A DNA stretch of 47,668 nt, taken from contig JAGWLR010000020.1 of assembly GCA_028864885.1 (NCBI GenBank), forward strand, positions 1-47,668, given 5' to 3'. Positions 20,545-44,912 of this stretch are shown piece by piece. Each line of letters begins with the position of its first letter. Positions within the stretch are counted from its first letter, which is position 1. Below the pieces are notes generated by a model, which saw nothing but the letters and a program-made list of their open reading frames with translations, had not been told where the DNA came from and did no database searches. Position numbers and translations under genes: made by a program. Source of the stretch: Burkholderiales bacterium. Lineage in GTDB: Bacteria > Pseudomonadota > Gammaproteobacteria > Burkholderiales > Burkholderiaceae_C.

Positions 20545-21465
20545 TCAGGCCAGGGCGCTGAGCATGTCGCCTTCGCGGCGTGCCAGCCCCAGCTTGACCA
20601 TCTGCTCGGCGGCCACCTGGGCCATCAGCTCAGGCGCCACCGGGTAGTACGCCGCGATCACCTTGTGGGTGATCGCACTGTGGCGAAACAGCTCGGCAAT
20701 GTCGTTCACGCTCATTTGCCGAGCCGCCAGCAACTTGAAAGCCAGCAAGGCCTTCAGCGCGTTGTCGGCATTGCGTTTGGGATCCGCCGCCAGCCATTTG
20801 ATGCGCGACTGCGCCGCATCCAAAGCCGCCTTCACGTTCGTGAACGGCGCACCATGCCCCGGAATCACCAGGCGCGGATCGAGTTGACCAATCAGATCCA
20901 GCGTGGCCTGTTGCTCGGCAAAGCCCGATTCACCCACGATCTCCGGAAAGATCACACCAAACCCGTTCTGCCAAAGCGCATCGGCACTGATGAGGATGCC
21001 GTGTCGCTCACACCAAAGCATGACCATGTCGTTGTCGTGCCCTGGCGCGCCCAGCACCTGCCAGTCATCGCCGCCCAGCTCAATCGTGTCGCCGGGTGTC
21101 ATCACGGCATCGTGTCGAAACTGCGGGCAATGCTGCCCGGTGGGGGCGTAGCTCAATCGGTCGGGGTCCCACTCGGTCACGGCATCAGCCAGGCCCGGCG
21201 GAATGACCGTCAGGCATTCGTAATGTTGCTGCAGCAGCGCATTGCCGCCAGCATGATCCGAATGCAGATGGGTGTTGAGGATGCGTTTGAGGGGCCGCCC
21301 TTGCAGGGCCTGGCGCACCAACGCGAGGGTCTGGTCCGCATGCGTGCCATAGCCCGTGTCGACCACGGTCGGGCAGTCGGGATCCAGAAAGACGATGTTG
21401 TTGGACGAGAGCCAGCCTCGCTCCAACACATGGATGTGTGCAGGCAGTGTCATCAGGTGGACCAT
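20545..21465 (-). CDS. Metallo-beta-lactamase-fold hydrolase
   Basis: 306 residues, cytoplasmic. The dinuclear metal site is intact: HLHSDHAGG near residue 65, HD in GAPGHDNDMVMLW, the Asp in ISADALW, and the His in VIPGHGAPF. A C-terminal helical extension of about 80 residues follows, with LLAARQMSVNDIAELFRH suggesting a small winged-helix-like tail as in LACTB2/glyoxalase-II-like enzymes. The substrate is unknown; thioester, lactone and phosphodiester hydrolases all share this fold. It abuts pstS tail to tail with no intergenic bases, so the two transcripts must overlap. Confidence 0.9.
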   Translation of the reverse strand: MVHLMTLPAHIHVLERGWLSSNNIVFLDPDCPTVVDTGYGTHADQTLALVRQALQGRPLKRILNTHLHSDHAGGNALLQQHYECLTVIPPGLADAVTEWDPDRLSYAPTGQHCPQFRHDAVMTPGDTIELGGDDWQVLGAPGHDNDMVMLWCERHGILISADALWQNGFGVIFPEIVGESGFAEQQATLDLIGQLDPRLVIPGHGAPFTNVKAALDAAQSRIKWLAADPKRNADNALKALLAFKLLAARQMSVNDIAELFRHSAITHKVIAAYYPVAPELMAQVAAEQMVKLGLARREGDMLSALA

Positions 21466-21989: not shown

Positions 21990-23546
21990 TCACGAACGGA
22001 TCAGGTGATCGAAGGCACTCAGAGCGGCCTTGGCACCATCGCCGGCGGCGATCACGATCTGCTTGTAGGGCACCGTGGTGCAGTCGCCCGCCGCAAACAC
22101 GCCAGGCACATTGGTGTGGCCCTTGGCATCGACAAGGATCTCACCGAACTTGGACAACTCCACCGTGCCGCGGAGCCACTCGGTGTTGGGCACCAGGCCG
22201 ATCTGCACGAACACGCCTTCCAGTGCCACGGTGTGCTCCACACCCGTGGCGCGGTCCTTGTACTTCAGACCGTTGACCTTGCCATCGGCCCCGGTGATTT
22301 CGGTGGTCTGCGCGTTGGTGTGGATGGTGACGTTGGACAGGCTCTTGAGCTTGTTGACCAGCACGGCATCGGCCTTGAGCTGATCGGCAAACTCGATCAA
22401 GGTGACGTGCTGCACGACGCCCGCCAGATCGATCGCCGCTTCGACCCCGGAGTTGCCGCCGCCGATCACCGACACGCGCTTGCCCTTGAACAGCGGGCCG
22501 TCGCAGTGCGGGCAGTAGGCCACGCCCTTGTTCTTGTATTCGGCTTCGCCTGGCACGTTCACATTGCGCCAGCGCGCGCCAGTGGACAAGATCACCGTCT
22601 TGGCTTTCAGCGTGCCGCCGTTGGCCATCTTCACCTGCACCAGGCCGCCCGGCTGATCTGCGGGGATCAGGCTTTCAGCGCGCTGCAGGTTCATGATGTC
22701 CACATCATAGGCCCGGGTGTGGGCTTCGAGCGCGGCGGCAAACTTGGGGCCGTCGGTTTCGAGCACCGAGATGTAGTTCTCGATGGCCAGCGTGTCGTTG
22801 ACCTGACCGCCAAAGCGCTCGGCCGCCACCCCCGTGCGGATGCCCTTGCGAGCCGCATACACGGCAGCCGCCGCGCCGGCAGGCCCCCCGCCAATGATCA
22901 GCACGTCATAAGGGGCCTTGGCATCAAGCTTGGCCGCTTCCTTGGCCGCCGAGCCGGTGTCGAGCTTGGCCACGATCTCCTCGACCGTCATGCGGCCAGA
23001 GGCGAACACCTCGCCATTGAGGAAGACCATCGGCACGGCCATGATCTCGCGCTTCGTGACCTCATCCTGGAAGGCGCCGCCCTCGATGACCGTGGTCTTG
23101 ATCTTGGGGTTGAGGATGGCCATGAGCGACAGCGCCTGCACCACGTCCGGGCAGTTGTGGCAGCTCAGGGACATGTAGACCTCGAAGTGGAAGTCCCCAT
23201 CCAGCGCGCGGATGCTGTCGATGACGTCGGCTTCGACCTTGGGCGGATGGCCACCGGTCCATAGCAGGGCCAGCACCAGCGAGGTGAACTCATGCCCCAG
23301 CGGCAAGCCGGCAAAGCGCAGGTGGTTGTTCGCCCCCACACGTTGCAGCGTGAAAGAGGGCTTGCGCGCATCGTTGCCATCGGTGCGCAAGGTGATCTTG
23401 TCGGCGCGCAAACCTTGGATGGTTTGCAGCAGCTCCAGCATCTCGCGAGAGTTCTCAGAGTCGCTCAGCGATGCCACGATCTCGAAGGGTTGTTGTACGC
23501 GCTCCAGATAAGCGCCGAGTTGTGCCTTGAGGTTGTCGTCCAACAT
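21990..23546 (-). CDS. ahpF: Alkyl hydroperoxide reductase subunit F
   Basis: NAD(P)H-dependent flavoprotein disulfide reductase that recharges AhpC. 518 residues from the ATG at 23546, which has AAGGA at good spacing; two upstream in-frame ATGs are less well placed. Domains: N-terminal double-thioredoxin-like part with redox centre CHNC near residue 129, then a thioredoxin-reductase-like part with FAD motif [19 protein letters not shown], redox centre CPHC near 340, NAD(P) motif [17 protein letters not shown], and a C-terminal [14 protein letters not shown]. Both CxxC pairs are intact. ahpC lies upstream on the same strand with a 159-bp gap, so the two are likely one oxidative-stress unit. 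Confidence 0.97.
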
Positions 23547-23705
23547 GGTGTGCATCCTTTTCAATCAAGCGACTTTGAGAACTGGCCTCCTATGGGTTTT
23601 CAGGCGGCCAGAGGGCTCCCCGCAGGCCTCTTGAGCCCGCAGGGAATGCAAATTCATCAACGATGTGGTGAGGTCAGGCCTCAGCACAGGTCAACGAGAA
23701 ATAAT

Positions 23706-24281
23706 TTAGATCTTGCCGACCAGGTCCAGCGACGGAGCCAGGGTCTTGGCGCCTTCGTTCCACTTGGCAGGGCAGACTTCGCCAGGGTGAGCGGCGGTGT
23801 ACTGAGCGGCCTTGAGCTTGCGCACGGTTTCTTTCACATCGCGAGCGATTTCGTTGGAGTGGATTTCCAGCGTTTTGATGGTCAGGTTGGGGTCGATGAT
23901 GAAGGTGCCGCGCAGCGCCAGGCCTTCTTCAGGGATGTGCACGCCGAAAGCGTTGGTCAGGGCGTGGGTGGGGTCGCCAACCAGGGGGAACTTGGCCTTG
24001 CCCACGGCAGGCGAAGTTTCGTGCCACACCTTGTGCGAGAAGTGGGTGTCGGTGGTCACGATGTAGACCTCGGCGCCGGCCTTCTGGAACTCAGCGTAGT
24101 GCTCAGCCGCGTCTTCGATTTCGGTGGGGCAGTTGAAGGTGAAAGCGGCCGGCATGAAGATCAGAACGGACCACTTGCCCTTCAGCGTTTGCTCGGTGAC
24201 TTCGATGAACTCGCCCTTGCCGCCACGGTTGACGAAAGCTTGGGTCTTGAACGGTTGGACTTGCGTGTTGATCAGAGACAT
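23706..24281 (-). CDS. ahpC: Alkyl hydroperoxide reductase subunit C (2-Cys peroxiredoxin)
   Basis: Reduces hydrogen peroxide and organic peroxides in the cytoplasm; recharged by AhpF. 191 residues from the ATG at 24281, preceded by AGGAG. The peroxidatic Cys is in FTFNCPTEIE near residue 51 and the resolving Cys in GEVCPAKW near 171; the family more often has Val before that first Cys. The active-site Arg region is present as GLALRGTFIIDP. An OxyR-like site lies about 72 bp upstream. Confidence 0.97.
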   Translation of the reverse strand: MSLINTQVQPFKTQAFVNRGGKGEFIEVTEQTLKGKWSVLIFMPAAFTFNCPTEIEDAAEHYAEFQKAGAEVYIVTTDTHFSHKVWHETSPAVGKAKFPLVGDPTHALTNAFGVHIPEEGLALRGTFIIDPNLTIKTLEIHSNEIARDVKETVRKLKAAQYTAAHPGEVCPAKWNEGAKTLAPSLDLVGKI

Positions 24282-24352
24282 GTCTGGCTCCTGTTTGGTT
24301 GAGATCAGGGATAAAACAGGACCGATCTTAGGCCAGCCAGACAATTGTCAGG

Positions 24353-24389
24353 ATTGATTGATCCAATGACTTTGATTGACACCCACTAT
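24353..24389 (-). promoter_or_regulatory. Candidate OxyR-binding site upstream of ahpC
   Basis: On the forward strand two 15-mers, ATTGATTGATCCAAT and ATTGACACCCACTAT, are separated by exactly 7 bp. Against the pattern ATAGNTNNNANCTAT each has 7 of 10 fixed positions. It sits just upstream of a plausible ahpC promoter (CTGACA at 24351-24346, TAAGAT at 24330-24325, a short 15-bp spacer). Confidence 0.45.
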
Positions 24390-24515
24390 GTGACGCCTCA
24401 GACCAACAGGTGCACAACGGACAAGATGCCAAATGGATCACGGGTTTGCCCCGGTCTCGTTTGTCGTGAAATATGACACATTGCCCTTTACGTACGTACT
24501 ACGGCAAAGGGTTGT

Positions 24516-24749
24516 ATGCATTCCGTTGTCCCGCACGAAACTGGCCCCTCCATGGACCCGGCATCGGCCCAGGCCCTGGAGCGGGCACTGGCCCTGACCA
24601 TCGGCCAGCTTCAGCCGCGCGTTGCCACCGAGCCGCCGGCGGAGCCCCTGCCGGTCGCCGAAGCCCAGGAAATCGATTGGGCAGAGTGGTGCGAGGCCAC
24701 CGCCGGCTCTGTCGGACAACTTCCTACACAGCAAGCAGCCAGACGCTGA
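24516..24749 (+). CDS. Possible small protein upstream of flhD, 77 residues
   Basis: An ATG-initiated frame with strong GC bias at third codon positions from 24552 to about 24710, typical of coding DNA here: ...SAQALERALALTIGQLQP... and IDWAEWCEATAGS. No signal peptide; acidic and helical. Its last 13 codons lie inside the flhD leader repeat (24710-24827) and look like leader, not protein, so the gene may have lost its original end or may be spurious. No clear ribosome binding site. Function unknown. Confidence 0.35.
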   Translation: MHSVVPHETGPSMDPASAQALERALALTIGQLQPRVATEPPAEPLPVAEAQEIDWAEWCEATAGSVGQLPTQQAARR

Positions 24750-24827
24750 CCTGTCTTACAGACGGCGTCCTATCAAGGAAATTGGCCGGTGTTTGCACAA
24801 TAACTCCATCGACAACGCCACAGCGCA
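24710..24827 (+). repeat. flhD copy of a duplicated leader/promoter region
   Basis: Aligns without gaps to 32971-33088 in front of flhC (offset 8261), about 80% identical by hand count. Best kept blocks: CTTACAGACGG at 24755, TCCTATCAAGGAAATTG from 24768, TTTGCACAAT from 24792 and TCCATCGAC from 24805. The repeat ends 20 bp before the flhD start. Confidence 0.85.
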
Positions 24828-24846
24828 GAAACGAAGGAGAAACGAG

Positions 24847-25170
24847 ATGAACGCCGACCAAATCCTCGCCGAAATCCGCGAAACCAACCTGTCCTACCTG
24901 ATGCTGGCTCAGACCCTGATCCGCGAAGATCGGGAGCAGGCGCTGTTCCGCCTCGGCATCTCGGAAGACGCGGCCGACCGTCTGGCTTCGCTGAGCCCGG
25001 CTCAGTTGCTGAAGATCGCTTCGACCAACACCCTGGTGTGCCGCATGCGTGTGGATGACGACCTGGTATGGACCCTGCTGACCAACCATGGCAAGGGCAG
25101 CGCCGTGGGCGGCATCGGCCAGCTGCACGCCAACATCCTGATGGCCGGTCGCCATCAAGAGGCGGCTTGA
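24847..25170 (+). CDS. flhD: Flagellar master regulator subunit FlhD
   Basis: FlhD joins FlhC in the heterohexamer that activates class II flagellar promoters together with sigma-70 RNA polymerase. 107 residues, typical length: IREINLSYL-like start (here IRETNLSYLMLAQTLIRED), AMFRLG-like centre (QALFRLGISEDAADRLASL) and a C-terminal helical part ending LHANILMAGRHQEAA. AAGGAGA precedes the ATG. flhC does not follow; it is 7.9 kb further on. The last 16 bases overlap the end of the convergent hybrid kinase gene. The gene looks intact. Confidence 0.96.
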   Translation: MNADQILAEIRETNLSYLMLAQTLIREDREQALFRLGISEDAADRLASLSPAQLLKIASTNTLVCRMRVDDDLVWTLLTNHGKGSAVGGIGQLHANILMAGRHQEAA

Positions 25171-27356
25171 AGCGATTGCTCCAGACGCGTCAGACATTGA
25201 CGCAAAGTGTCATAGAGCACGGCGGCCCGGTCAAATTGACCGGCCTTGCCCGCTTCGACCAATTGCCTGCTGACGTGGTGCATGGCTTTGGCCGACAGGC
25301 TGCCGGTTGATCCACTGACATGATGTGCGGCAGACACCAGTTGCCGCGCATCACCCGAGCGAATGGCCGACTCCATCTCAGCCAGCCTCCTGGGGCTGTC
25401 ACTGAGAAAGACGTTGGCAAGCTCCATGAACAAGGCTTTGTCGCCACCGCAACGCTCGAGCGCTTCATTCAAGTCCAAGTCGGGCAGCGTGTCGGCCAAG
25501 TCGGCCTGAATCGACATCACCCGATCAATTTCGGCCATCATCCGATCCACCAGGATCGGCTTGCTGATGTAGCCATCCATGCCCGCTTGCAGGCAACGCT
25601 CGCGGTCACCTGACATGGCATTGGCTGTCATCGCCACAATGGGCTGATGGCGAACGCCGCCTTGTTCGCGCAAGCGAATGGCCCGGGTGGCGTCCAAGCC
25701 GCTCATGTGGGGCATTTGCATGTCCATCAACACCAGGTCGTATTCACCGCTGGCCGATTGGTCAACGGCCCGCACCCCGTCGGGGACCACATCGACTCGG
25801 TGCCCCAGGTGACTCAGCAAGCTCACCGCGAGCTTCTGGTTGACCACATTGTCCTCGGCCAACAAGATCTTCAGACCTTGGTGAGTGCGTTTGATCGGCT
25901 GCGCCAGACGCGGTGGCGCCGGGGTGGCGACCACCGAGACGGATGGGTCAGGCAAGGTCACGGGAAAGGTCACATGAAAGGTGCTGCCCTGCCCCAGCTG
26001 GCTTTCCACCCAGATCTGCCCGTTCATCAACCGAACCAGCCCGGCGCAAATCGTCAACCCCAAGCCGGACCCACCAAAGCGACGGGTGGTGCTGGCATCC
26101 GCCTGCGTGAAGGCCTCAAAAATTTGCCGTTGCTGCACTGGAGAGATGCCGATCCCCGAGTCGCTCACCAAGAGATGCAGTTGTTGTTGCTTGCTCGTTG
26201 CCGTCTCGTATCCGATATGCAAACGCACCTCGCCTTGCTCGGTGAACTTGATGGCATTACCGACCAAATTGATCAAAATCTGGCGCAGGCGAACCGGATC
26301 GGCCACCACGGCATCCGGCACATCGGGACCGGCGTCGACCCGAAGTGCCAAACCCTTTTCCCGGGCCCGCAAGGTAAGGGCTTGAATCCCCACCCCAATT
26401 TCATGACGCAGGGAAAACGGCACATTCTCGATGGTCAGCTTGCCGGCTTCCATCTTGGACACATCCAAAATGTCATTGACGATGACCAACAGAGAGTCTG
26501 CCGATGACTTGACCAGTTGCAGATACTCCCGCTGTTGCGTTGTCAATTCAGTGGCCAGCGTCAACTCGGTCATGCCAATGATGCCGTTCATCGGCGTACG
26601 GATTTCATGGCTCATATTGGCCAGAAACTCCGACTTGGTTCGACTGGCGCGTTCGGCGTGCTCTTTGGCCTCCACCAACTGTTGTGTCAATTGCTTGGCC
26701 TCGGTGTTGTCCAGAATCAAGCCATCGAAGTACAGTAGCTTGCCGCGCTCATCGAAAATCCCCTGACCCTTGCCATAGGCCCAGACAATGCGCCCATCCG
26801 TATGATGAATACGGTAGTGCACCTCATAAGACCGCCGTTCGGCAACGGCCGCTCGCACCTCTCTGTCGATAGACGGCAGGTCGTCAGGCACCACGATGTC
26901 AGACAAGCAGACTTCGCCAGACATGAACTGGGCTGCGGTTCGCCCCGAGAGCGCGGCGATGCCATCCGTCAAGAAGAGCATCGTGTTGCATCGGTCAGGC
27001 AGACACCGGTAGACACAACCTGGCAGGTTGGCGATCAACCGCAGATATTTGTCCTCGCTCTCTACCAGAGCCTGCTGGGTCTGCGCGCGCAATTTGTCAT
27101 GCGCTGCAATCAACTCCTGCGACGACAGCTCAAGGCTACGCGTACGCAGCGTCAGATCCCGCTCGTACTGGTTGTAGCTGTCATCGACCATGGCCAGAAA
27201 TCGGGGCAAGCGCTCCGCCCATTCCGCCAGTTCGCCGCAAATGGCGTCCCCTGATGCCGCCTCACGCAAACGGGTTTGCCACGACGCCAGGGCCTCATCG
27301 CTTTCAAGGCCCAAACCCCGCTTGAGCTGACGAATCAAGGATTTGTTCGACAACAT
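25155..27356 (-). CDS. Cytoplasmic PAS hybrid histidine kinase with receiver and Hpt
   Basis: 733 residues, no membrane helix. An N-terminal helical region of 100 residues (ending in a coiled coil), PAS/PAC domain about 100-220 (LIANLPGCVYRC, HTDGRIVWAYGKG), HisKA with His250 in [12 protein letters not shown], HATPase (NLVGNAIKF, DSGIGISP, GGSGLGLTI), receiver (ILLAEDNVVNQKLA; phospho-Asp in LVLMDMQMPHMSG) and C-terminal Hpt with AAHHVSGSTGSL. It is the last gene of a four-gene operon; its start is 11 bp behind the FIST gene, a common partner of such kinases. Its 3' end overlaps flhD by 16 bp on the opposite strand. FIST protein as input is inference. Confidence 0.95.
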   Translation of the reverse strand: MLSNKSLIRQLKRGLGLESDEALASWQTRLREAASGDAICGELAEWAERLPRFLAMVDDSYNQYERDLTLRTRSLELSSQELIAAHDKLRAQTQQALVESEDKYLRLIANLPGCVYRCLPDRCNTMLFLTDGIAALSGRTAAQFMSGEVCLSDIVVPDDLPSIDREVRAAVAERRSYEVHYRIHHTDGRIVWAYGKGQGIFDERGKLLYFDGLILDNTEAKQLTQQLVEAKEHAERASRTKSEFLANMSHEIRTPMNGIIGMTELTLATELTTQQREYLQLVKSSADSLLVIVNDILDVSKMEAGKLTIENVPFSLRHEIGVGIQALTLRAREKGLALRVDAGPDVPDAVVADPVRLRQILINLVGNAIKFTEQGEVRLHIGYETATSKQQQLHLLVSDSGIGISPVQQRQIFEAFTQADASTTRRFGGSGLGLTICAGLVRLMNGQIWVESQLGQGSTFHVTFPVTLPDPSVSVVATPAPPRLAQPIKRTHQGLKILLAEDNVVNQKLAVSLLSHLGHRVDVVPDGVRAVDQSASGEYDLVLMDMQMPHMSGLDATRAIRLREQGGVRHQPIVAMTANAMSGDRERCLQAGMDGYISKPILVDRMMAEIDRVMSIQADLADTLPDLDLNEALERCGGDKALFMELANVFLSDSPRRLAEMESAIRSGDARQLVSAAHHVSGSTGSLSAKAMHHVSRQLVEAGKAGQFDRAAVLYDTLRQCLTRLEQSLQAAS

Positions 27357-27367
27357 CCGTTACCGCC

Positions 27368-28510
27368 TTACGCGACTTCGCTGAGGTAGGTGATCGTCAT
27401 GGTTTGGTTATGCAGCTTGCAATCGAGGCCTTTGACGGTTGGGCTGATTTCGCCGTAAGAATAGAAACCTGACACCGTGGCATGGCGTCCGAATACCGCC
27501 GCGACGGCTTCAACCTCTTCATCGACATGGGCCCCCATCACCAGTTTTCGGCCAACGCAACTCACCAGTAACGCCAAGCCATCCTCATCGGGCAGGGATT
27601 CTTCTCGCACCCGTTCAGCCGCGATTTCGGCGCCAGTGATGAGTGAATCGGTTGTGGCGTGCATCAGGCGCAGATAGCCGTCCTGCACTACCTCGCCAGC
27701 CAGAATCAAGCTACCTTGGGCCTCATTGATTCCCAGGATCGTGCGTATCAAACCCAGTTCATTGCGGTCGGCACCGAGCATTTCGAATGGAAAGAGCAAG
27801 CCCGAGCCAGGCAGATCACGCGCGTAGTCACCCAGATAGCGCTTGTAAATCTCAAGCGCTGGCTCGCCGTCCAGCTCATACAGAACATTCCCCTCGCAAC
27901 GGGTGACCCGACGGAGCACGCCGAACGGTTGCCAGCCATGGAAACTGCCATGACGCAGCTTCAGCTTGGGCCCGGACAAGCCTAGGGCGACCAACTGGCT
28001 GGGCGAAATGGCCGTGTCCGAGACCGTCCATGTTTGCTTGAACGCGCCGGCGTCACCCGCCAGACCACCCGAAATCGAAACCTCGCGAGGCAGCCGACTC
28101 TGCAGCCCCTCGATCAAGGCACTGCCGTTGATCGCCACCCCCTGCCCCAGCAGGATCACACTGTGGACATCCGAATCGCTCAATTGACTGGCGAGCCGCT
28201 GCCCGGCTGCAAATGAATCGCCCATGTCAGCCAGATCAGTCGTGACGAGCTTGAAGCTGGGCTGCGCCAGATTCACGGCGGAAATGACCACCCCGCCGTT
28301 CGTGACCCCCTCGTTGGAGATTTCACCGGCGGTGCTGCACCCGATCAGGTTGACGTTGGGTAAGGCCGCCTTGAGTTGTGCGAGGGATGAGTCCGATGCG
28401 AGGTGCCGCGCATCCGCAAACACAAAGGCCAGTTGAGGATCGATCGCCAGTAGTTCAGCGCATTCGTCGGCGTTTGGAATATGCTCCCAGAGTCCTTGCG
28501 CCACCTTCAT
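27368..28510 (-). CDS. FIST sensory domain protein (FIST_N plus FIST_C)
   Basis: 380 residues, soluble. FIST domains are predicted small-ligand sensors, proposed to bind amino acids or similar compounds. Typical features: LIGCSTAGEISNEGV near residue 75, an ISGGLAGDAGAFKQT segment, LVALGLSGPKLKLRHGSFHGWQPFG, then FIST_C with LDGEPALEIYKRYLG, DGYLRLMHAT and SCVGRKLVMG, ending in GFYSYGEISP, which is the family end motif. The start overlaps the HD-GYP stop by 4 bp (ATGA), so the two are translationally coupled. Encoded next to a hybrid kinase on one side and an HD-GYP protein on the other, it is probably the sensor of the module. Confidence 0.95.
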   Translation of the reverse strand: MKVAQGLWEHIPNADECAELLAIDPQLAFVFADARHLASDSSLAQLKAALPNVNLIGCSTAGEISNEGVTNGGVVISAVNLAQPSFKLVTTDLADMGDSFAAGQRLASQLSDSDVHSVILLGQGVAINGSALIEGLQSRLPREVSISGGLAGDAGAFKQTWTVSDTAISPSQLVALGLSGPKLKLRHGSFHGWQPFGVLRRVTRCEGNVLYELDGEPALEIYKRYLGDYARDLPGSGLLFPFEMLGADRNELGLIRTILGINEAQGSLILAGEVVQDGYLRLMHATTDSLITGAEIAAERVREESLPDEDGLALLVSCVGRKLVMGAHVDEEVEAVAAVFGRHATVSGFYSYGEISPTVKGLDCKLHNQTMTITYLSEVA

Positions 28511-29568
28511 GCTGGCTCCTCGCCTGACGTCACGAGATCGTCCTGGAACCGCGCCTTGATCGCCAGCACCTCATTCATGTGATCCAGAAACGCCTTGATG
28601 CAGACCGGATCGAAATGGCTGCCGCTGTTTTCTTTCAAGAAGTCGACAGCACGATCCACCTCCCAGGCCTTTTTGTAGGGACGCTCCGACGTCAAGGCAT
28701 CGAACACATCGGCCACGGCGACGATGCGCCCGACCAAGGGGATGGCCCCTCCAGCCAGGCCCTTCGGGTAGCCGCTGCCATCGAATTTTTCATGGTGGGT
28801 GAGGGCGATCACCGCGGCCATCTGCAGGAACGGCGAGGTGCTGCCATCCAGGATTTCGAAGCCAATGGCGGCGTGCTCACGCATGATCGTCATTTCTTCC
28901 GGATCGAGGCGACCGGGTTTGAGCAGGATGTGATCAGGCGTGCCGACCTTGCCAATGTCATGCATGGGGGCGGCATCCAGAATCAGTTCCTGGTCTGCTT
29001 TCGACCACCCCAGCTCGCGCGCAATCAACTGCGAGTAATGCGCCATCCGCAAGAGATGGGCCCCCGTTTCAGGATCGCGGTATTCGGCTGCCCGCGCCAA
29101 CTTCAGCACGGTTTCGCGTTCACGCGCCACGATAGCCGCAGTGGCCTTGGCCACTTCCTGGGCCAGCCAACTGGCGCGATCGGCCAACTCCTTCTGATTA
29201 CGGCGCAGCACCAGCATGTTGCGCGTGCGGGCCAGAAATTCAGCCCGGTCCACCGGCTTGGTCAAGAGGTCGTTGGCCCCTTTTTCCAGCGCCTGGAACT
29301 TGACATCGGTGTCGCTGCTGGCGGTGATCATCAGGATCGGGGTCAGCGTCTTGCCCGGGGCCGCACGAAACGCTTCGATGAAGGCCATGCCGTCGAGCTC
29401 GGGCATCATGTAATCCACGATCAACAGATCGGGATCGTTCTGCAAGCACCAGTCCAGCCCTTGGCGCGCATCGAGAAATTCCACCGTTTCCGTGTCTGGC
29501 AATTGCCGGGCCAAGACCTTGAGCAAGGTGACGTTGACCGGGTTGTCATCCACGATGGCGATCTGCAT
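28507..29568 (-). CDS. Response regulator with HD-GYP c-di-GMP phosphodiesterase output
   Basis: 353 residues: receiver (IAIVDDNPVNVTLL; Asp52 in LLIVDYMMPELDG; Lys in LLTKPVDRAEF), linker helix, then HD-GYP domain with HLLRMAHYSQLIARELG, HDIGKVGTPDHILLKPG, and HHEKFDGSGYPKGLAG, all metal ligands and the GYP triad present. It should hydrolyse c-di-GMP. A GCGGAG ribosome binding site precedes the ATG. It follows the MASE3 kinase by 49 bp and overlaps the FIST gene start. In many bacteria lower c-di-GMP favours flagellar motility, which would fit its position inside the flhD-flhC interval (inference). Confidence 0.95.
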   Translation of the reverse strand: MQIAIVDDNPVNVTLLKVLARQLPDTETVEFLDARQGLDWCLQNDPDLLIVDYMMPELDGMAFIEAFRAAPGKTLTPILMITASSDTDVKFQALEKGANDLLTKPVDRAEFLARTRNMLVLRRNQKELADRASWLAQEVAKATAAIVARERETVLKLARAAEYRDPETGAHLLRMAHYSQLIARELGWSKADQELILDAAPMHDIGKVGTPDHILLKPGRLDPEEMTIMREHAAIGFEILDGSTSPFLQMAAVIALTHHEKFDGSGYPKGLAGGAIPLVGRIVAVADVFDALTSERPYKKAWEVDRAVDFLKENSGSHFDPVCIKAFLDHMNEVLAIKARFQDDLVTSGEEPA

Positions 29569-29617
29569 GAGGGCTCCGCACGGACTGATGGTTTAGAGGT
29601 ATCGGCAGGGGGCGTCT

Positions 29618-32830
<3,213 letters not shown>

Positions 32831-32970
32831 GACCCCCTCCAGGGTTGTGCGGGCTGCTCCAACGTCCATACCCCCGCATGGTTCATTTTTTCTGATTTGA
32901 CGGATCCACATTATTAGGGGTGTTGCCAGCCATTTGATTGGGCAGTGTTTACCCGGCTATTGCAGGCTTC

Positions 32971-33088
32971 TGTCAGACAAATTCCTACAAAACGTGTAGC
33001 AAGACACCGACCGCGCTTACAGACGGGCTCCTATCAAGGAAATTGAGCTGTTTTTGCACAATGAATCCATCGACGACGCAACCGCGAT
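32971..33088 (+). repeat. flhC copy of the duplicated leader/promoter region
   Basis: Gapless partner of 24710-24827. It lies in the 284-bp divergent region between the MASE3 kinase and flhC and ends 26 bp before the flhC start. It begins with TGTCAGACAAATTCCTACA, in which TGTC-A-GACA is an inverted repeat. Confidence 0.85.
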
Positions 33089-33114
33089 CTGAAATCTGAA
33101 CCGAGGAGACCCCC

Positions 33115-33651
33115 ATGCGAGCCAAGAGCCTGTTGACCGAAGCCAAGCAAATCGAAACCGCCGTCACCCTGATCAATCTGGGTGCCCGCCTGCAGGTGCT
33201 GGAATCGGAAACCAACCTCTCGTATGAGCGTCTGCTGCGTCTGTACAAAGAAGTGTCGGGCAAGTCGCCCTCGAAAGGCCAACTGCCTTTCTCGACCGAC
33301 TGGTTCATGACCTGGCAGCCCAACATCCACGCCTCGCTGTTCCTGAACATCCACGAGTATCTGAACAAGGCAGCCGAGATGGACGAAATCGATACTGTCA
33401 TCAAGGCCTACCAGCTGTACCTCGAACAAACCCAGAACCAAGGTCTGGAAGCGCTGTTGTCGGTCACCCGTGCCTGGCGCCTGGTGAAGTTCATCGACAA
33501 CGGCATGTTGACCCTGACCAAGTGCTCCAAGTGCGGTGGTCACTTCGTCAGCCACCCCCACGAAATCTCTCGCCACTATGTCTGCGGTCTGTGCAATCCC
33601 CCTGCACGCGCTGGCAAGGGCAAAGCCTCCGGTGCCATCCAGATGCACTGA
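33115..33651 (+). CDS. flhC: Flagellar master regulator subunit FlhC
   Basis: The DNA-binding and zinc-binding partner of FlhD. 178 residues, intact. N-terminal helical part with RLLRLYKEVSGKSPSKGQLP (AxSP-type motif), a middle FSTDWFMTWQPNIHASLF, and the C-terminal zinc cluster CSKCGGHF...YVCGLCNPP with four Cys. GGAGA precedes the ATG. It has its own leader copy and its own terminator 53 bp after the stop. motA and motB, which commonly follow flhDC, are not present. Confidence 0.96.
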   Translation: MRAKSLLTEAKQIETAVTLINLGARLQVLESETNLSYERLLRLYKEVSGKSPSKGQLPFSTDWFMTWQPNIHASLFLNIHEYLNKAAEMDEIDTVIKAYQLYLEQTQNQGLEALLSVTRAWRLVKFIDNGMLTLTKCSKCGGHFVSHPHEISRHYVCGLCNPPARAGKGKASGAIQMH

Positions 33652-33704
33652 AGGATGAGGACTCCTGTTTGATTGTGTTTGCTCCGTAGATTGCATGTTG
33701 TTGC

Positions 33705-33736
33705 GCCCCGGATCCTCGGATCTGGGGCTTTTTTTT
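33705..33736 (+). terminator. Intrinsic terminator of flhC
   Basis: GCCCCGGATCC, loop TC, GGATCTGGGGC, followed by eight T. One G-T pair in an 11-bp stem. Confidence 0.9.
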
Positions 33737-33806
33737 GCAACACGTGCTGGTCTTCAGCGCCACTCCATAGTCTGATCGCCTGCTGCCTGACCCAAGGGAC
33801 TTTCCT

Positions 33807-34028
33807 TCAAAAGCCTTGCGATCCCGCGCTGCTTAGAGACGCATGGCGCTCAGCTGCGCGTTCTACACAGCGGGCTTTTTCGTCCTCAGTCATTCGGGTC
33901 CACTGCGCGATTTCTTGCAAAGTGCGCCCGCAACCCACGCACACGTCGTTCTGGTTAAGACGACAGACCTGTACGCAGGGGCTGGCCACGGGAAACCGAG
34001 TTTGATCGGATCCATCCGGATAGTTCAT
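33807..34028 (-). CDS. DUF1289 family small cysteine protein
   Basis: 73 residues with the full family signature: SPCVQVCRLNQNDVCVGCGR followed by TLQEIAQWTRM and a charged helical end. The four Cys in a C-x3-C-x7-C-x2-C arrangement suggest a metal or iron-sulfur site. No function is established for the family to my knowledge; some members are fused to oxidoreductases. It is divergent from the exported protein gene at 34124 and convergent with flhC. Confidence 0.9.
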   Translation of the reverse strand: MNYPDGSDQTRFPVASPCVQVCRLNQNDVCVGCGRTLQEIAQWTRMTEDEKARCVERAAERHASLSSAGSQGF

Positions 34029-34123
34029 GCACTCACCTTTGCCCCAGAATTGTCCAACAAAGGACAGGAAGGTGAACCAAAGCTGGCTAAAAGGATCTAC
34101 TCACTTTTACCGAAAGCCCAACC

Positions 34124-34570
34124 ATGAAGCACTCGATGCACCTTCCAATCGCGTTGGCCGCCTCTTTGCTGATGGTGGCCACACACGCCCCAGCCCAAAC
34201 CACCGCCAATTCAGACCGCCCATCCTTGAAGGGCAGTTGGCAATTCCGCCCCAGGGGCACCGGGTGCACTGAACAGTATTTCTTCCGCTCAGATGGCACC
34301 TTGATGGTGCAAAGCGCCCATGAGGTCAGTGAAAGCACTTATGTGCTGGCCGATCAACCTGAGCGGGGTGGCTTTTACAAATTCGAGACGCAGGTCACGC
34401 AGACCAACGGCCGACACGATTGCCAGGGCAAGCAGACCCCCGTGGGCAAACAATCGAGCAGCTACCTGCGGTTTCAGGCCAACGGCAACCGCTTGATCTT
34501 GTGCCGCGAGGCCAACCTGTCGGCCTGCATGGGCCCCCTGATCCGCCTCAAGGGACGGATCGGGGCCTGA
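34124..34570 (+). CDS. Exported protein of unknown function, 148 residues
   Basis: Sec signal peptide (MKHSMHLPIALAASLLMVA, cleavage near APAQ-TT). The mature part has four Cys (GTGCTEQY, RHDCQGK, LILCREAN, SACMGP) that could form two disulfides in the periplasm, and a beta-rich pattern (LKGSWQFRP, YFFRSDGTLMVQ, YLRFQANGNRLIL) like small lipocalin-type barrels. This fold idea is only an impression. Monocistronic, convergent with the NarL-type regulator. Confidence 0.7.
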   Translation: MKHSMHLPIALAASLLMVATHAPAQTTANSDRPSLKGSWQFRPRGTGCTEQYFFRSDGTLMVQSAHEVSESTYVLADQPERGGFYKFETQVTQTNGRHDCQGKQTPVGKQSSSYLRFQANGNRLILCREANLSACMGPLIRLKGRIGA

Positions 34571-34577
34571 CCTCCCA

Positions 34578-35210
34578 TCACAACGGCGTCATGCCGTGAC
34601 GGATGGCGCAGCGAACCAGGTCGGGGTTGTTCGTCACGCCCAGCTTTTGCATCATCCGCATCTTGTGGGTGCTGACGGTTTTCGGGCTGAGGTGCAGATT
34701 GTCGGCAATGCTGCCCAAAGGCATGCCCGAGACGATCATCTGCAGAATCTGGTACTCACGCTCGGACAGGACCGCCTTGGGATGGGCGTCGGTTTCGCCG
34801 GCCGTGAACACGACGGACTCAACCAGCGCTGGATCAATGAATTTGCCGCCCGCCGCAACACGACGCACGCCATTGAGCAGCACATTGGGTTCGCTGTCTT
34901 TGGTGATGTAACCCTGCGCTCCGGCCTTGAGGGCACGCTGAACGATCTGGCCTTCGTTGTGCATCGACAAGATGAGTACAGGCAGAGAGGGCATCTCCGC
35001 ATGCAAGACCTTGAGCATTTCCAACCCACCCAATGAGGGCAGGCTGATGTCCAGCAAAAGCATGTCGACGTTGCCGGCCCTCACCAGGGCCAGGGCCTCT
35101 TCGGTCGTACTGGCTTCGGCCACCACCTGGATATCATCCGTGGTGGCCATGATCTGACGGATACCTCCACGCACGATGGCGTGGTCGTCGGCGATCACCA
35201 TGCGAATCAT
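34578..35210 (-). CDS. NarL/FixJ-family response regulator
   Basis: 210 residues: receiver (IRMVIADDHAIVRGGIRQI; phospho-Asp in MLLLDISLPSLGGLE; Lys in YITKDSEP) and LuxR-type helix-turn-helix (LSEREYQILQMIVSGMPLGS, LSPKTVSTHKMRMMQKLGV). The start overlaps the upstream kinase stop by 4 bp (ATGA), fixing the start at 35210 and marking the kinase as partner. In the helix-turn-helix entry the usual Gly-Lys pair (GKSNKEI-like) is GMPLGSI. Targets unknown. Confidence 0.94.
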   Translation of the reverse strand: MIRMVIADDHAIVRGGIRQIMATTDDIQVVAEASTTEEALALVRAGNVDMLLLDISLPSLGGLEMLKVLHAEMPSLPVLILSMHNEGQIVQRALKAGAQGYITKDSEPNVLLNGVRRVAAGGKFIDPALVESVVFTAGETDAHPKAVLSEREYQILQMIVSGMPLGSIADNLHLSPKTVSTHKMRMMQKLGVTNNPDLVRCAIRHGMTPL

Positions 35211-36334
35211 GGCGTAAGCTCCTTGTTCAAAGGCAATTGAATGTCTATGGTTGCGCCCGCACCCGGCTGACTGATGATCAACATCTGCCCACCCCATGCC
35301 TGGACTCGCTCTCGCATCCCCTTCAAGCCAAAAGCCTGACGGGCCAAGACTGTTGCAGGTAAAAATCCCACCCCATTGTCAACGATCCTGAGGTAAAGCT
35401 TGTCGTTTTGGCAATTCATTGTGATGTCGACGTGGCTAGCCTGAGCATGGCGCATCACATTTGTCAGCGATTCCTGCACACATCTGAAGATGACCGTGGC
35501 CTGGTCTGATGACAATCGTGCAGATATCGCATCTCCCTGAGAGCACTCCAGGTCGATGTCCAAGCCGCAACGTCGCTGAACTTCCTCGACCAGCCACTCG
35601 ACACCAGCGAAGAGGCCCAGTTCCAGAACCGGTGGACGCAAGTTACCCGCAACCTGGCGCACGACGGTCATGATGTGTTTAAGCTGGCTTTGGATGTCGG
35701 ACACAGCCACATCCATCCCTTCTACCTGAGCGAAGCGACGCCCCAAGGTTGACACCTCCATTTTCAGGCCGGTCAGGAGTTGGCCGAGCTCATCGTGCAT
35801 TTCGCGCGCGATGGTTCGCTTTTCGGCTTCCATCTCGGCGTGATGATGCGCGGACAAGGCTCGCAACTGGTCCCGCGCATCACGCAGCGCCCGCGTGACT
35901 TCCCGCGTGGATGAAATGTCTTGGACACTGATGACCCGAAAAATCGGTTCACCCCTCTCGTCCCTGACCACGGTGGCATCCACCAGGACAGGGAACTCGG
36001 AGCCATCACAACGAATGTGTCGTGACTCGAACTGGTGCTGGCCCTGTTCGTGTACCTTGGCGATATTTGCCTTGGCCTCTTCCCAGGCTGCGGGCGCAAA
36101 AACCTTCTCGACCGGCGCGCCCTGCAATGCTTCAACTTGATAGCCGTGCATGCGCGCAAACGCGGGATTCACCTCGACCAGCGTCTGGCTGTCGCACGAA
36201 CTGATCGCCATTCCCCAGCCTGCGTTGCTGAAGAGGCTTTCCAGCAAGCGCAGCCGACGCGTGCAGGCGTCGGCGTCAGAGGCCGCCTGAGGCGACACAG
36301 GGTGATTCAGAATCGGTGGGGAAGCTTCCAACAT
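35207..36334 (-). CDS. PAS sensor histidine kinase of the NarX/HisKA_3 type
   Basis: 375 residues, soluble. PAS/PAC about 28-145 (LLESLFSNAGWGMAISSCD, HIRCDGSEFPVLVDATVV), HisKA_3 with the H box in KRTIAREMHDELGQLLTGL, then a short HATPase with QESLTNVMRHAQASH, DNGVGFLP and GLKGMRERVQAWGG. All key residues are present. It is the first gene of a kinase-regulator operon and divergent from a second, longer HisKA_3 kinase 79 bp away; the two share the same catalytic type, and only one regulator is nearby. Confidence 0.94.
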   Translation of the reverse strand: MLEASPPILNHPVSPQAASDADACTRRLRLLESLFSNAGWGMAISSCDSQTLVEVNPAFARMHGYQVEALQGAPVEKVFAPAAWEEAKANIAKVHEQGQHQFESRHIRCDGSEFPVLVDATVVRDERGEPIFRVISVQDISSTREVTRALRDARDQLRALSAHHHAEMEAEKRTIAREMHDELGQLLTGLKMEVSTLGRRFAQVEGMDVAVSDIQSQLKHIMTVVRQVAGNLRPPVLELGLFAGVEWLVEEVQRRCGLDIDLECSQGDAISARLSSDQATVIFRCVQESLTNVMRHAQASHVDITMNCQNDKLYLRIVDNGVGFLPATVLARQAFGLKGMRERVQAWGGQMLIISQPGAGATIDIQLPLNKELTP

Positions 36335-36413
36335 GGTGACGCATCATAGAAGGACCACGCAAAGTGTCAAAGCCGAAAAAGCTGGTCAACAGCGGGAAAC
36401 CGCCTGACTGGGA

Positions 36414-38201
36414 ATGGCAACTCAAGGCGGCATACTGGCGGGGCTTCGCCATGCACGCTTCATGATTCCCCCACGTCGATTCCCTCCAGCTTTGGCTATT
36501 CCAGCCGCTGCGTCCTTGACCTTGATAGCCGGCACGCTGCAAGGGCTTTTGAAATCCCATGCTCCGGGCGCCATCTGGCTTTTGTTTTACCCGGCCGTTT
36601 ATCTCAGTTCCTGGCTTGGCGGGTTGATCGCTGGGGTCACGTCGGCGGTGGTTTCGATCGCGATTGTGTGGCTTTGGATGCTTCCGGGTTCCTTGACACT
36701 GCCGGGCGCCCTGTTGGCAACCGCAGTGTTTGCCTGTCTTTGCGGTCTCATTTGTTACAGCCATGAGCGCGGCCGGCGCTCAGAGCAACGTCTTCGTATC
36801 TTGTTCGCCCGCTCGGCAGATGCCATCATCGTGGCCGACATGTTCGGATGCTGCCGGGCCATCAACCCATCGGCTTGCGTAATGCTGGCGTATCCCCGAG
36901 CCAACTTGATCGGGCAATCCATTTTCGGCTTTGTTGCACCGGAGGATTCCGAGCGCGTGAAGCAAGCCCTGGACCTGGCTCGGCAAGGTGGTATCGACCG
37001 TCTGGATATCCACATTGTCAATGCATTGGCTGAATCGATTCCAGTCGAGTTAAGTACCAACGCACTATCTGGCGATGAGTGGTTGATCAACATTCGGGAC
37101 AGTCGCCCCCGCAAGGAAGCTGAGGAATCGTTGCTGCAAGTAAGAGCTGAGCTGTACGAGGCGCAACGCTTGGCCCAAATCGGAAACTGGCAATGGGATA
37201 TGACGTCGGACCAGATGAAGTGGTCACCTGAGCTGTTTCGAATCTACCGATGGGACCCGGCAAAGGCACCGCCGTCCATCGACGAACTGGAGGTGTTCTA
37301 TGCCGCGCAGTCACGAGAGTCTCGCAAGACCGCCATGCAGGAGGTCATGACATCTGGCAAGCCATACACCGCAGAGCGCGAAATCGTCTTCCCAGACGGA
37401 ATGAGGCGCTGGATACTTGTGACCAATGAGGGCATTCGTGGCCCCGACGGCAAGATCACCAAACTGCGGGGCACTGCGCAAGACGTCACCGACCGTAAGC
37501 GGATGGAGTTGCAGCTCATCGATTCGCAATCAGAATTGCGTGAAATCGCTGCCCACAGAGAGCTTGAACGAGAAGAGGAACGCAAGGCTATCGCCCGCGA
37601 AATTCATGATGAGTTGGGCCAACTGCTGGCTGCCATGCGCATGAATGCGGTTCAGATCCAAGCGCATTGCAGTCCGGCTCCAGCAGCCCGGGTTCATCTC
37701 GATGATTTGAGCAAGCTGGTTCAGCGCATGTTCGAGGTCGTACGCAGCCTGGCCACCAGCCTTCGTCCAGCAGCCCTTGATTTGGGGCTGGTCAGCGCAC
37801 TCGAGTGGTTGGTGGAAGACTTCTCAATACGGTGGGAAATCCCCTGCAAATTACAAATTCTTGGCGACGAGCCTGAGCTGCGAGACGCCCTCTCCACGGC
37901 TGTTTTTCGTGTGGTTCAAGAATCGTTGACCAACGCGGCCAAGCACGCGCAAGCACATCAAATTGACATTCAACTGAGCTTCGAGGCACAACTCGTGCGA
38001 GTAAGCATTCGGGATGATGGGTGTGGATTCATACCCGAGCAAACTAATCGACCTGGTCACTTTGGATTGATTGGCATGCGTGAACGAATCCTATCGCTTC
38101 AGGGACACATCGACATCAAAACCGCGCCTGGACAAGGCACCCAGGTGGCTTTTGAAGTGCCTATCAATGACAGTCACACCTTGACTTTGCAGAAGACCTG
38201 A
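36414..38201 (+). CDS. Membrane PAS sensor histidine kinase, NarX/HisKA_3 type
   Basis: 595 residues. N-terminal membrane part with three to four helices resembling DUF4118 of KdpD-like kinases (LLFYPAVYLSSWLGGLIAGV, VVSIAIVWLWMLPG, LATAVFACLCGLICY), a PAS domain (FARSADAIIVADMFGCCRAINP), a second PAS/PAC (AQIGNWQWDMTSDQMKWSPE), HisKA_3 with ERKAIAREIHDELGQLLAAM, and HATPase (QESLTNAAKHAQAH, DDGCGFIP, GLIGMRERIL). The start is uncertain: 36414 or the in-frame ATG at 36462, neither with a clear ribosome binding site. There is no regulator gene behind it; it may feed the NarL-type regulator across the divergent promoter (inference). A fragment of a related kinase follows. Confidence 0.92.
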   Translation: MATQGGILAGLRHARFMIPPRRFPPALAIPAAASLTLIAGTLQGLLKSHAPGAIWLLFYPAVYLSSWLGGLIAGVTSAVVSIAIVWLWMLPGSLTLPGALLATAVFACLCGLICYSHERGRRSEQRLRILFARSADAIIVADMFGCCRAINPSACVMLAYPRANLIGQSIFGFVAPEDSERVKQALDLARQGGIDRLDIHIVNALAESIPVELSTNALSGDEWLINIRDSRPRKEAEESLLQVRAELYEAQRLAQIGNWQWDMTSDQMKWSPELFRIYRWDPAKAPPSIDELEVFYAAQSRESRKTAMQEVMTSGKPYTAEREIVFPDGMRRWILVTNEGIRGPDGKITKLRGTAQDVTDRKRMELQLIDSQSELREIAAHRELEREEERKAIAREIHDELGQLLAAMRMNAVQIQAHCSPAPAARVHLDDLSKLVQRMFEVVRSLATSLRPAALDLGLVSALEWLVEDFSIRWEIPCKLQILGDEPELRDALSTAVFRVVQESLTNAAKHAQAHQIDIQLSFEAQLVRVSIRDDGCGFIPEQTNRPGHFGLIGMRERILSLQGHIDIKTAPGQGTQVAFEVPINDSHTLTLQKT

Positions 38202-38208
38202 AATTCAC

Positions 38209-38283
38209 ATGAGTGCTGTGATCGAACGCACCTTCGAAGTGGTACGCAGCGTTGCCACCAGTTTGAGACCATCGGTGCATTGA
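38209..38283 (+). pseudogene. Relic of a HisKA_3 kinase gene
   Basis: The frame reads MSAVIERTFEVVRSVATSLR then PSVH and stop. It matches the segment QRMFEVVRSLATSLRPAAL of the intact kinase just upstream (37719-37770) in protein and DNA. No other part of a kinase is visible. The remaining stretch to 38493 holds a 22-codon frame at 38292-38360 (MRQYETADGHSGYLAWRAQR plus two residues) that may be another relic; nothing else is recognised there. Confidence 0.65.
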
Positions 38284-38493
38284 TTAACATCATGCGTCAG
38301 TACGAGACGGCGGATGGGCACAGCGGCTATCTGGCGTGGCGTGCACAACGACGAACATGAAACGACTCAATCGAATCGCTTTCTTGACCTAAACCGCCAA
38401 CCTTGATCCAAAACGATCAGGACATTTTCGCTGGCGGGCGTCACACGCAGTCCCTAAGCTTCGTGACCTCAGCTGTCATCACGGAGAACCAGG

Positions 38494-42971: not shown

Positions 42972-44912
42972 TCACGTCGAAGTAGTTGGCTTGAAGACAT
43001 AACGGGAGTTGTCCGCGTACTTCAACTCTTTGTCACCACCGATGTAACAACAGCGCGGATCAGAAGGTAAGGTCACGTCTTTGGCAAAGCCAGCCAATGA
43101 GTCATGGACAAATGAATCGTAGAAGTCAATAACCAGCGGATCAGTTAGTCCGCGACCATGAGTGAACTCATCGTCGTAGGCCTGTAGCAAGCGCTCATAG
43201 TGTGGACGCAGCTTCTTGCCGGACGCCAATTGACTCTTCAAGTAATTGACGTCCTTGATGAGATGCTCGTCATAGAGGTCGAGCTTGCCGATCAATTCGC
43301 CTTTGTAATCGGGCAGGGTGTCAAGCTTGCCCTTCTCTTTGAGATAGGCGTCCAACGCACGCTCGTGACGCATCTTTGCATCCATGTACGCCTGGTGCCT
43401 GGCCTCATGATCAAAATCGGGAGCATGCTGACTCGCAGTCAGCCACGCGTTGTGCTTGCGTTGCATGTCTCGCTCAGCTTGATCCGATTGCTCCTTCAGC
43501 TGATCAACCCGCTGCTTCAAGCCACTGTGGCCATCGTCTCCCTCTGCCTCTCGTCGGAAAACGCTTTCCTCCTTTTGAATCTCAGCAAATTCTTGCTCTC
43601 GCAAACGAAGCCGAATTTTTCGGAATCGCCAGCGATAGTAGAGTTGACTGTGCGCCAACAATGCATCGCCCAGCCGACCCTGAGTAAAGCCTGCGTGCGT
43701 CATAACGCTGTTGAAGCGGTCGGCTAGTTCAGAATCGAAAGCAAAATCATCAGCTATCTTGGGGTTATCCAACGGTAGCAAGGGGACGCCATTACTGACC
43801 GCTTCCTCGTACATCTTTCTCAACGGAATTTTGCTCAGCATGAACTCACGCCGAAGCGACTTCCCAGCCTCACCAGGTCTGTAACCGCCTCCAACGTTCG
43901 AGTGGGCTCCCGGATACACAATCTCTGTAGCCCCCGCCGGAAGTTCATTGCCATTCCAGATCGTGTCGAGCGGAAACGAGTTGCGTAGTTCGTTCATCGC
44001 CATCAAATGGATCGTGCGCGAGACCACAGGCGGAATTCGCAAGTCGTGCGCCCACGCCATGTGTCCATCAAAGATCCAAGGGGTTGGATCTGCCCCCGGT
44101 GAGTCGCCAAATGCTTGCGCTTGCAAGCCTGAGCCCCAACCCGTCCGACGTGAATCCAATTTCTTGTCGAGAACACTGGCGTCAAATGCCACTTGACTGG
44201 CTCCCAAACCGGTACTGGCGGGCAATCCGACCGACGCCACAGTATCAAACAGCCCAAGAAAGTGAATACACAGGGACTTGTTTACCGTTGGCCAAATGGC
44301 CTCATTGCCCCGCCAGTCGCAGCGTGCATCGACGCGCCGAGCAAACGCGCGAGCCAGGGTGGAACCTCGAGAAAAGCCAAATACCGACAATTCAATCGAT
44401 TCAATTTTGTCGGCAGGATGCTTGGCTATCGTTTCATCCAGCCATTTCATGGCCTGATCGAGTCGATCCTCTCCGCGTGCGCCAAAGCCATTGCCCCAAT
44501 CACCACCTTCGTCGCCTATTTCGCGGAAATAAGTACCCAGCCCGGGGATGTAGTGTTTGTAGATCCCTTTGTCCTGATCCACGTCGTAAAAGGCTCTGAA
44601 CAACCGAGCAACATTACTGTGCTCGTCGGTTCCGACGTCTGCGTCCAAATTGTTGCCGGTTCCATCGAAGAAGAACCCAATCTTCAACTTAACTTTGCAC
44701 GTGTAAGCATTTGGCGTAGTACCTAGTCGCGCATGCAATGCTGCTGAGGCAGCGAACGGATTCAATTCACCAATTGGCGCGTCTGGTGGAGGCGATACAG
44801 GCGCCAGAAGCGTATCCAAGGCCGATGCACTGCTCGACAATCCGTTGAGCGGCTGGCGTAAACCCGGCCCCTGCTGTGACGGGCGATAATCAATTCGATT
44901 TGAGTATGTCAT
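42972..44912 (-). CDS. Tle1-like type VI secretion lipase effector (DUF2235)
   Basis: 646 residues, no signal peptide, as expected for a cargo carried by VgrG. DUF2235 hydrolase with LKIGFFFDGTGNN, nucleophile elbow GFSRGST near residue 180, LGLFDTVASVG and YPGAHSNVGGGY; Tle1 enzymes are phospholipases acting in the periplasm of target cells. The last motif has Asn where I recall Asp in many relatives. A charged coiled-coil segment (around 430-510) and a short C-terminal domain follow. The frame stays open to 44996; start at 44912 gives the smallest overlap (23 bp) with the preceding immunity gene, 44963 is possible. Codons are poorer in GC than in the rest of the window, suggesting transfer. 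Confidence 0.88.
   Translation of the reverse strand: MTYSNRIDYRPSQQGPGLRQPLNGLSSSASALDTLLAPVSPPPDAPIGELNPFAASAALHARLGTTPNAYTCKVKLKIGFFFDGTGNNLDADVGTDEHSNVARLFRAFYDVDQDKGIYKHYIPGLGTYFREIGDEGGDWGNGFGARGEDRLDQAMKWLDETIAKHPADKIESIELSVFGFSRGSTLARAFARRVDARCDWRGNEAIWPTVNKSLCIHFLGLFDTVASVGLPASTGLGASQVAFDASVLDKKLDSRRTGWGSGLQAQAFGDSPGADPTPWIFDGHMAWAHDLRIPPVVSRTIHLMAMNELRNSFPLDTIWNGNELPAGATEIVYPGAHSNVGGGYRPGEAGKSLRREFMLSKIPLRKMYEEAVSNGVPLLPLDNPKIADDFAFDSELADRFNSVMTHAGFTQGRLGDALLAHSQLYYRWRFRKIRLRLREQEFAEIQKEESVFRREAEGDDGHSGLKQRVDQLKEQSDQAERDMQRKHNAWLTASQHAPDFDHEARHQAYMDAKMRHERALDAYLKEKGKLDTLPDYKGELIGKLDLYDEHLIKDVNYLKSQLASGKKLRPHYERLLQAYDDEFTHGRGLTDPLVIDFYDSFVHDSLAGFAKDVTLPSDPRCCYIGGDKELKYADNSRYVFKPTTST

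Follow-up and report, generated by a model that had tools for sequence, protein, structure and literature searches.

The window analysed here is the whole stretch of 47,668 nucleotides at positions 1 to 47,668 of contig JAGWLR010000020.1 from a Burkholderiales bacterium. It contains flhD and flhC, the products of which form one complex that is expected to need co-transcription of both genes. In the window the two genes are arranged as follows.

21990..24344, reverse strand: ahpF and ahpC, the conserved left flank that identifies this place (locus A); both over NCBIfam cut-offs
24708..24846, forward strand: flhD promoter and leader block of the locus-A type, with the palindrome TGTCGGACAACTTCCTACA at 24710-24728
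24847..25170, forward strand: flhD, extra ahpCF-linked copy, intact (open reading frame and FlhD domain, 135.2 bits)
25155..27356, reverse strand: PAS-HisKA-HATPase-REC-Hpt hybrid kinase in a NosK-like position (open reading frame and domain search)
27368..28510, reverse strand: FIST/FIST_C protein, NosP-like (domain search)
28507..29568, reverse strand: REC-HD-GYP protein (Pfam HD_5/HD), NosR-like (open reading frame and domain search)
29618..32830, reverse strand: MASE3-PAS-HisKA-HATPase-2xREC-Hpt hybrid kinase, the reading frame being open to 32911
32969..33087, forward strand: duplicate of the flhD promoter block, ahead of flhC, with the palindrome TGTCAGACAAATTCCTACA at 32971-32989
33115..33651, forward strand: flhC, extra copy, intact (open reading frame and FlhC domain, 284.5 bits)
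33705..33736, forward strand: intrinsic-terminator-like hairpin with T-run 3' of flhC (terminator scan)

A sequence-only reading of this DNA had described flhD and flhC as intact and 7.9 kb apart with four reverse-strand signalling genes between them, and the reading frames, domains, strands and coordinates agree with this description. FlhD and FlhC of the window are matched over their full length above the curated Pfam and NCBIfam cut-offs, and by eye the flhC product has its two CxxC pairs. The gap from the flhD stop to the flhC start measures 7,944 bp and carries genes of the opposite strand, and the pair is thus no flhDC operon in the sense of same-strand adjacency. The overlap claimed for the PAS kinase gene and flhD is also there: their 3' ends share 16 bp, tail to tail. 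The start of the MASE3 kinase is probably at 32830 rather than 32911, since the ATG at this position is preceded by a GGAGG conserved in a sister species (G030, see below), which would place approximately 284 bp between the kinase start and flhC. The terminator scan gave no terminator-like site at the junction of flhD and the kinase gene; its total was 11 sites, not clearly higher than the shuffle mean of 9.4. Far downstream, the product encoded at 42972-44996 of the window has a Tle1-like T6SS phospholipase domain (Pfam, 88.8 bits).

The split pair has a counterpart elsewhere in the same genome. A second, adjacent flhDC operon had been named as one of two findings that would speak against a switch built into the master regulator, and such an operon exists on contig C78. 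Both of its genes are over the family cut-offs, flhC starts 47 nt past the last matched position of FlhD, and motA adjoins flhC. The split pair is therefore not “the” master regulator. The genomes of the genus that were covered, 42 in number, carry G-numbers here, G000 being the genome of the window. At least two flhD matches occur in 28 out of 37 genus genomes, G000 included, with some of the matches being fragments at contig ends. Judged from these sequences, it is usual in the genus to possess two flhDC operons, one linked to motA and an extra one linked to ahpCF. The window pair shares with the canonical flhDC operon (FlhD4C2, often beside motAB) the same genes over the cut-offs and the same palindrome; it differs in consisting of two units 7.9 kb apart, in the separate promoter copies, and in its coexistence with an intact operon.

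Some further flhDC-like sequences were observed in the genus. Contig C80 of G000 (20934-21407, L065) encodes an FlhC-like protein (36 bits compared to a cut-off of 27) with no FlhD match nearby; its neighbours are Toprim primase-like and DUF932 genes, and it is perhaps part of a mobile element. Weak FlhC-like matches resembling this protein are found in other genus members. Plasmid records searched with FlhC yielded 56 records, 55 of which have less than 60% identity. In L184 (G065, contig C48) flhC is matched as two pieces in different frames and is perhaps broken or misread. Tandem, nearly identical flhDC operons flank one cytochrome P450 gene in G016 (L069) and G034 (L070). Duplication of flhDC around other genes thus happens in the genus, although these copies are not at the ahpCF-linked place.

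To put the spacing into context we considered 53 flhD copies of both loci from 32 of the 42 genus genomes. Distances start at the last matched FlhD position, with the stop codon counted in; adjacency can be judged only away from contig ends, which in several genomes fall within flhD or flhC or next to them. In 50 of the 53 copies flhC follows 31-79 nt behind the FlhD match. The remaining three are G022, where the contig ends just past flhD, and two split copies, the window and contig C17 of G030. A blast search with the window gave the same picture for the extra locus alone: the ahpF-ahpC left flank is followed by adjacent flhDC in 20 out of 21 unsplit locus-A copies, with G022 being the 21st.

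G030 is another species, and it has the same split with the same four genes in the same order, the same 16-bp overlap and the same PAS kinase domains. Its locus spans two contigs, with the flhD half on C17 and the flhC half on C156, and the contig ends match each other over 140 bp at 99.3%. DNA identity to the window is approximately 75% at the split locus. The presence of the same split in a second species is an argument that the split is old and no assembly error. Several contigs of relatives do end inside flhD or flhC, as near-identical copies would cause, and this could hint at an artefact of assembly or binning; against this, a single contig spans the window, and the same order at such a distance speaks against misassembly, so that we attach practically no weight to this explanation. 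Immediately past flhC, G030 carries a further PAS hybrid kinase (C156, L068:7148-10246), unlike the window, which has no PAS hybrid kinase reading frame there.

The content of the gap is not random among close relatives, contrary to what had been named as a possible refutation, because G030, the only other genome found split, has an identical gene set and order. In its organization the gap module resembles a NosRPK-like c-di-GMP phosphorelay to which a MASE3 kinase is added, as far as domains and gene order can tell, and it is probably transcribed from a promoter of its own. In Burkholderia, NosP is a FIST protein with heme as its NO sensor, and the kinase under its control phosphorylates a regulator of the HD-GYP type (PMC12570481); according to a review, NO and/or heme may be ligands of FIST domains (PMC8846402). 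The gap has the same succession of REC/HD-GYP, FIST and histidine kinase genes, all on one strand, as is given for nosRPK (PMC12570481). Differences exist as well, as the kinase of the gap module has PAS, REC and Hpt domains, a MASE3 hybrid kinase heads the cluster, and the HD and GYP motifs are intact by eye, while the NosR of that paper is called degenerate (PMC12570481). The FIST protein reaches 60.3 bits with the NosP model (NF041558, cut-off 450), and the REC-HD-GYP protein has its best hit in the NosR model (NF053512) with 146.2 bits at a cut-off of 400. Both scores stay below the cut-offs; the module proteins may work like NosP and NosR, yet by this test they do not belong to these families. 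In a check for a heme ligand, residue H187 of the FIST protein was found to be present in 75 of 80 relatives, which we do not take as evidence of heme binding, and no solved structure was matched at an E-value of 0.01.

Close relatives of the FIST protein (E ≤ 1e-60, at least 72% identity) occur in two of the 42 genus genomes, G000 and G030 (72% identity), and relatives at 42-45% identity in five further ones; weak or decayed further cases could escape the cut-off of 1e-60. A look at the best 80 out of 304 named FIST-relative loci, some with short flanks, yielded 79 loci without flhD or flhC in the flank. The one exception, L084 (7,412 bases), has the same extent and match positions as contig C17 of G030. 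The order HD-GYP, FIST, kinase-like gene is also present in at least two named relatives (L085, L086). The proposal to look for the same four genes in the flhD-flhC gap of other genomes thus had a divided outcome: they recur in G030, and the best 80 of 304 loci, with flhD or flhC in the visible flank of 1, give no support for a recurrence across the Burkholderiales. The right flank of the locus (34200-38300) has a similarly narrow distribution, with long matches among the 42 genus genomes in G000 and G030 only, and short ones in G003 and G062.

The region in front of flhC is itself a copy of the flhD promoter block. Positions 32969-33087 are identical to the flhD promoter region 24708-24826 at 94 out of 119 positions, while the second-best match within the window reaches 55. 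As reference we took 21 unsplit locus-A promoters, with 63 positions conserved at ≥95% and 60 variable ones; G031 was excluded, its 3' half being unlike the rest. The copy ahead of flhC keeps 60 (G000) and 61 (G030) of the 63 conserved positions, and the flhD promoters of the two split genomes keep 62 (G000) and 56 (G030), the latter being the lowest value of all alignment rows. At the 60 variable positions the copy ahead of flhC matches 36 (G000) and 30 (G030), the flhD promoters 33 and 34, respectively. The 21 unsplit promoters themselves range from 60 to 63 conserved and from 29 to 46 variable positions. Among the best 15 candidates per genome, a promoter block without flhD behind it was found in two of the 42 genus genomes, again G000 and G030. 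One base is common to all four promoters of these two genomes and absent from the 22 other alignment rows, and the promoter copy therefore arose within their lineage. Of 11 informative columns six group by gene (flhD with flhD, flhC with flhC), two by species, and three cross. This gene-wise majority favours a duplication before speciation. The promoter was thus probably duplicated before the two species parted, and then kept. A sigma-70 scan of 24300-34200 returned no promoter-like site at all, flhD included; what is found ahead of both units, flhD as well as flhC, is the conserved block with its palindrome.

These observations bear on the sensory switch proposed earlier, spelled out here such that convergent transcription of the module would repress flhD and a divergent promoter would couple flhC to it, so that the activity of the module would set the FlhD:FlhC ratio. 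The 16-bp convergent overlap is kept in G030, both split genomes carry the same four genes, and the flhD/kinase junction is free of terminator-like sites in the scan, all of which would suit such a switch, and it is possible that the convergent kinase gene interferes with flhD. A divergent promoter shared with the module has become less probable as the link to flhC, as flhC has a promoter of the flhDC type for itself and the kinase probably starts some distance away, at 32830. The adjacent, motA-linked operon can moreover supply the complex. The switch on the master regulator is to be regarded as an idea rather than a finding, and we consider it rather improbable.

A palindrome of the form TGTMRG-N7-CYKACA opens each flhDC promoter and is the same in the motA-linked copy on C78. 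It precedes the 53 genus flhD copies without exception, at either locus, and three out of eight copies of other families. While one must keep in mind that the pattern was written after viewing these promoters, which makes the 53 out of 53 circular in part, this does not apply to its absence from the remainder of the loci: they comprise 912,186 bases with 58 sites, all of them located 100-230 nt before flhD (56) or flhC (2), and the reversed pattern has no site in the same bases. In the whole G000 genome the palindrome is hardly commoner than the reversed pattern (six compared to five sites); three of the six are those of the C78 operon, the window flhD and the window flhC. The palindrome may bind a regulator. 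It may also bear a likeness to RcsAB or GacA boxes. The enteric flhDC promoter has a site bound by a regulator of the FixJ/NarL type, namely RcsB (PMC5829831). The window itself encodes a NarL-type response regulator (34578-35297) together with two HisKA_3 kinases in 34578-38201. This response regulator is probably not the one that acts on the palindrome throughout the genus, because its flank is matched at length only in G000 and G030 out of the 42 genomes.

The question whether the split copy is decaying can be addressed by comparing G000 and G030. For the split pair the ratio dN/dS amounts to 0.09 (flhD) and 0.04 (flhC), similar to the 0.13 and 0.04 of the motA-linked flhD and flhC. By these values, purifying selection acts on each gene of the split pair. 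In the flhD tree the window copy is sister to the G030 copy (100/93). In the flhC tree all four G000 and G030 copies form one group (90/95, with the bootstrap not settled) and the loci are not separated; the split flhC may therefore stem from the motA-linked copy, or have been converted by it. An exchange of flhC between the loci in the ancestor of G000 and G030 is likely on the grounds of this tree. Within a genome, the two FlhC proteins resemble each other more closely than the two FlhD proteins do in 14 out of 17 comparable genus genomes, with ties in three; for C78 and the window the identity is 94% for FlhC and 76% for FlhD. FlhC may be homogenized between the loci while FlhD diverges.

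Selection is also the point at which a purely passive history can be weighed. The module could be a lineage-specific island that entered a redundant operon, was tolerated as the motA-linked operon works, and has no link to the control of motility. The intact operon on C78 would provide the redundancy, and the occurrence of close FIST relatives and of the right flank in so few genomes, together with the 79 of 80 module-relative loci without flhD or flhC nearby, are what one would see with an island. Neither the purifying selection on both genes nor the 60 to 61 of 63 conserved positions kept in the second promoter is expected of a decaying copy, and we regard this history as unlikely.

We therefore favour, with a probability of roughly 70%, the reading that the window contains a split extra operon under twin promoters, with a sensory module between its halves, which continue to be regulated together. 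The extra ahpCF-linked operon would have been divided by the four-gene module in the common ancestor of G000 and G030. In the course of this the flhDC promoter would have been duplicated, so that flhD and flhC would each have obtained one copy, the palindrome included. Tandem duplication of flhDC around the new genes is a likely route, after which the first copy would have lost flhC and the second flhD. Inspection by eye revealed no trace of a lost flhD in the sequence before flhC, nor of a lost flhC in that after flhD; the reciprocal loss is therefore not proven, and an insertion with capture of the promoter fits equally well. The split copy would be transcriptionally active, and the conservation of the promoters points to co-expression of the two units. 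The same regulator could still switch both halves together, which would lead to a second FlhD/FlhC complex. The order of these events, as well as the signal of the module, is inferred.

A more far-reaching version of this reading would be a dedicated second master regulator, with its subunits under the twin promoters and a NosP-like relay that tunes the dosage of FlhD and FlhC independently by convergent transcription and c-di-GMP, leading to an adjustable stoichiometry; we consider it quite improbable.

Among the PMC papers listed for duplicated or separated flhDC (in one case 10 of 48), no title or abstract opening mentions a split flhDC. The split extra operon is a natural case in which flhD and flhC are separated, kept through the divergence of two species, and provided with the same promoter on each half. 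It may represent one way for co-regulation to persist after an operon has been broken up, and it could serve as a test system for the question whether FlhD and FlhC must come from one mRNA to reach the stoichiometry of FlhD4C2. The organism belongs to a genus whose members usually have two flhDC operons that share one conserved palindrome.
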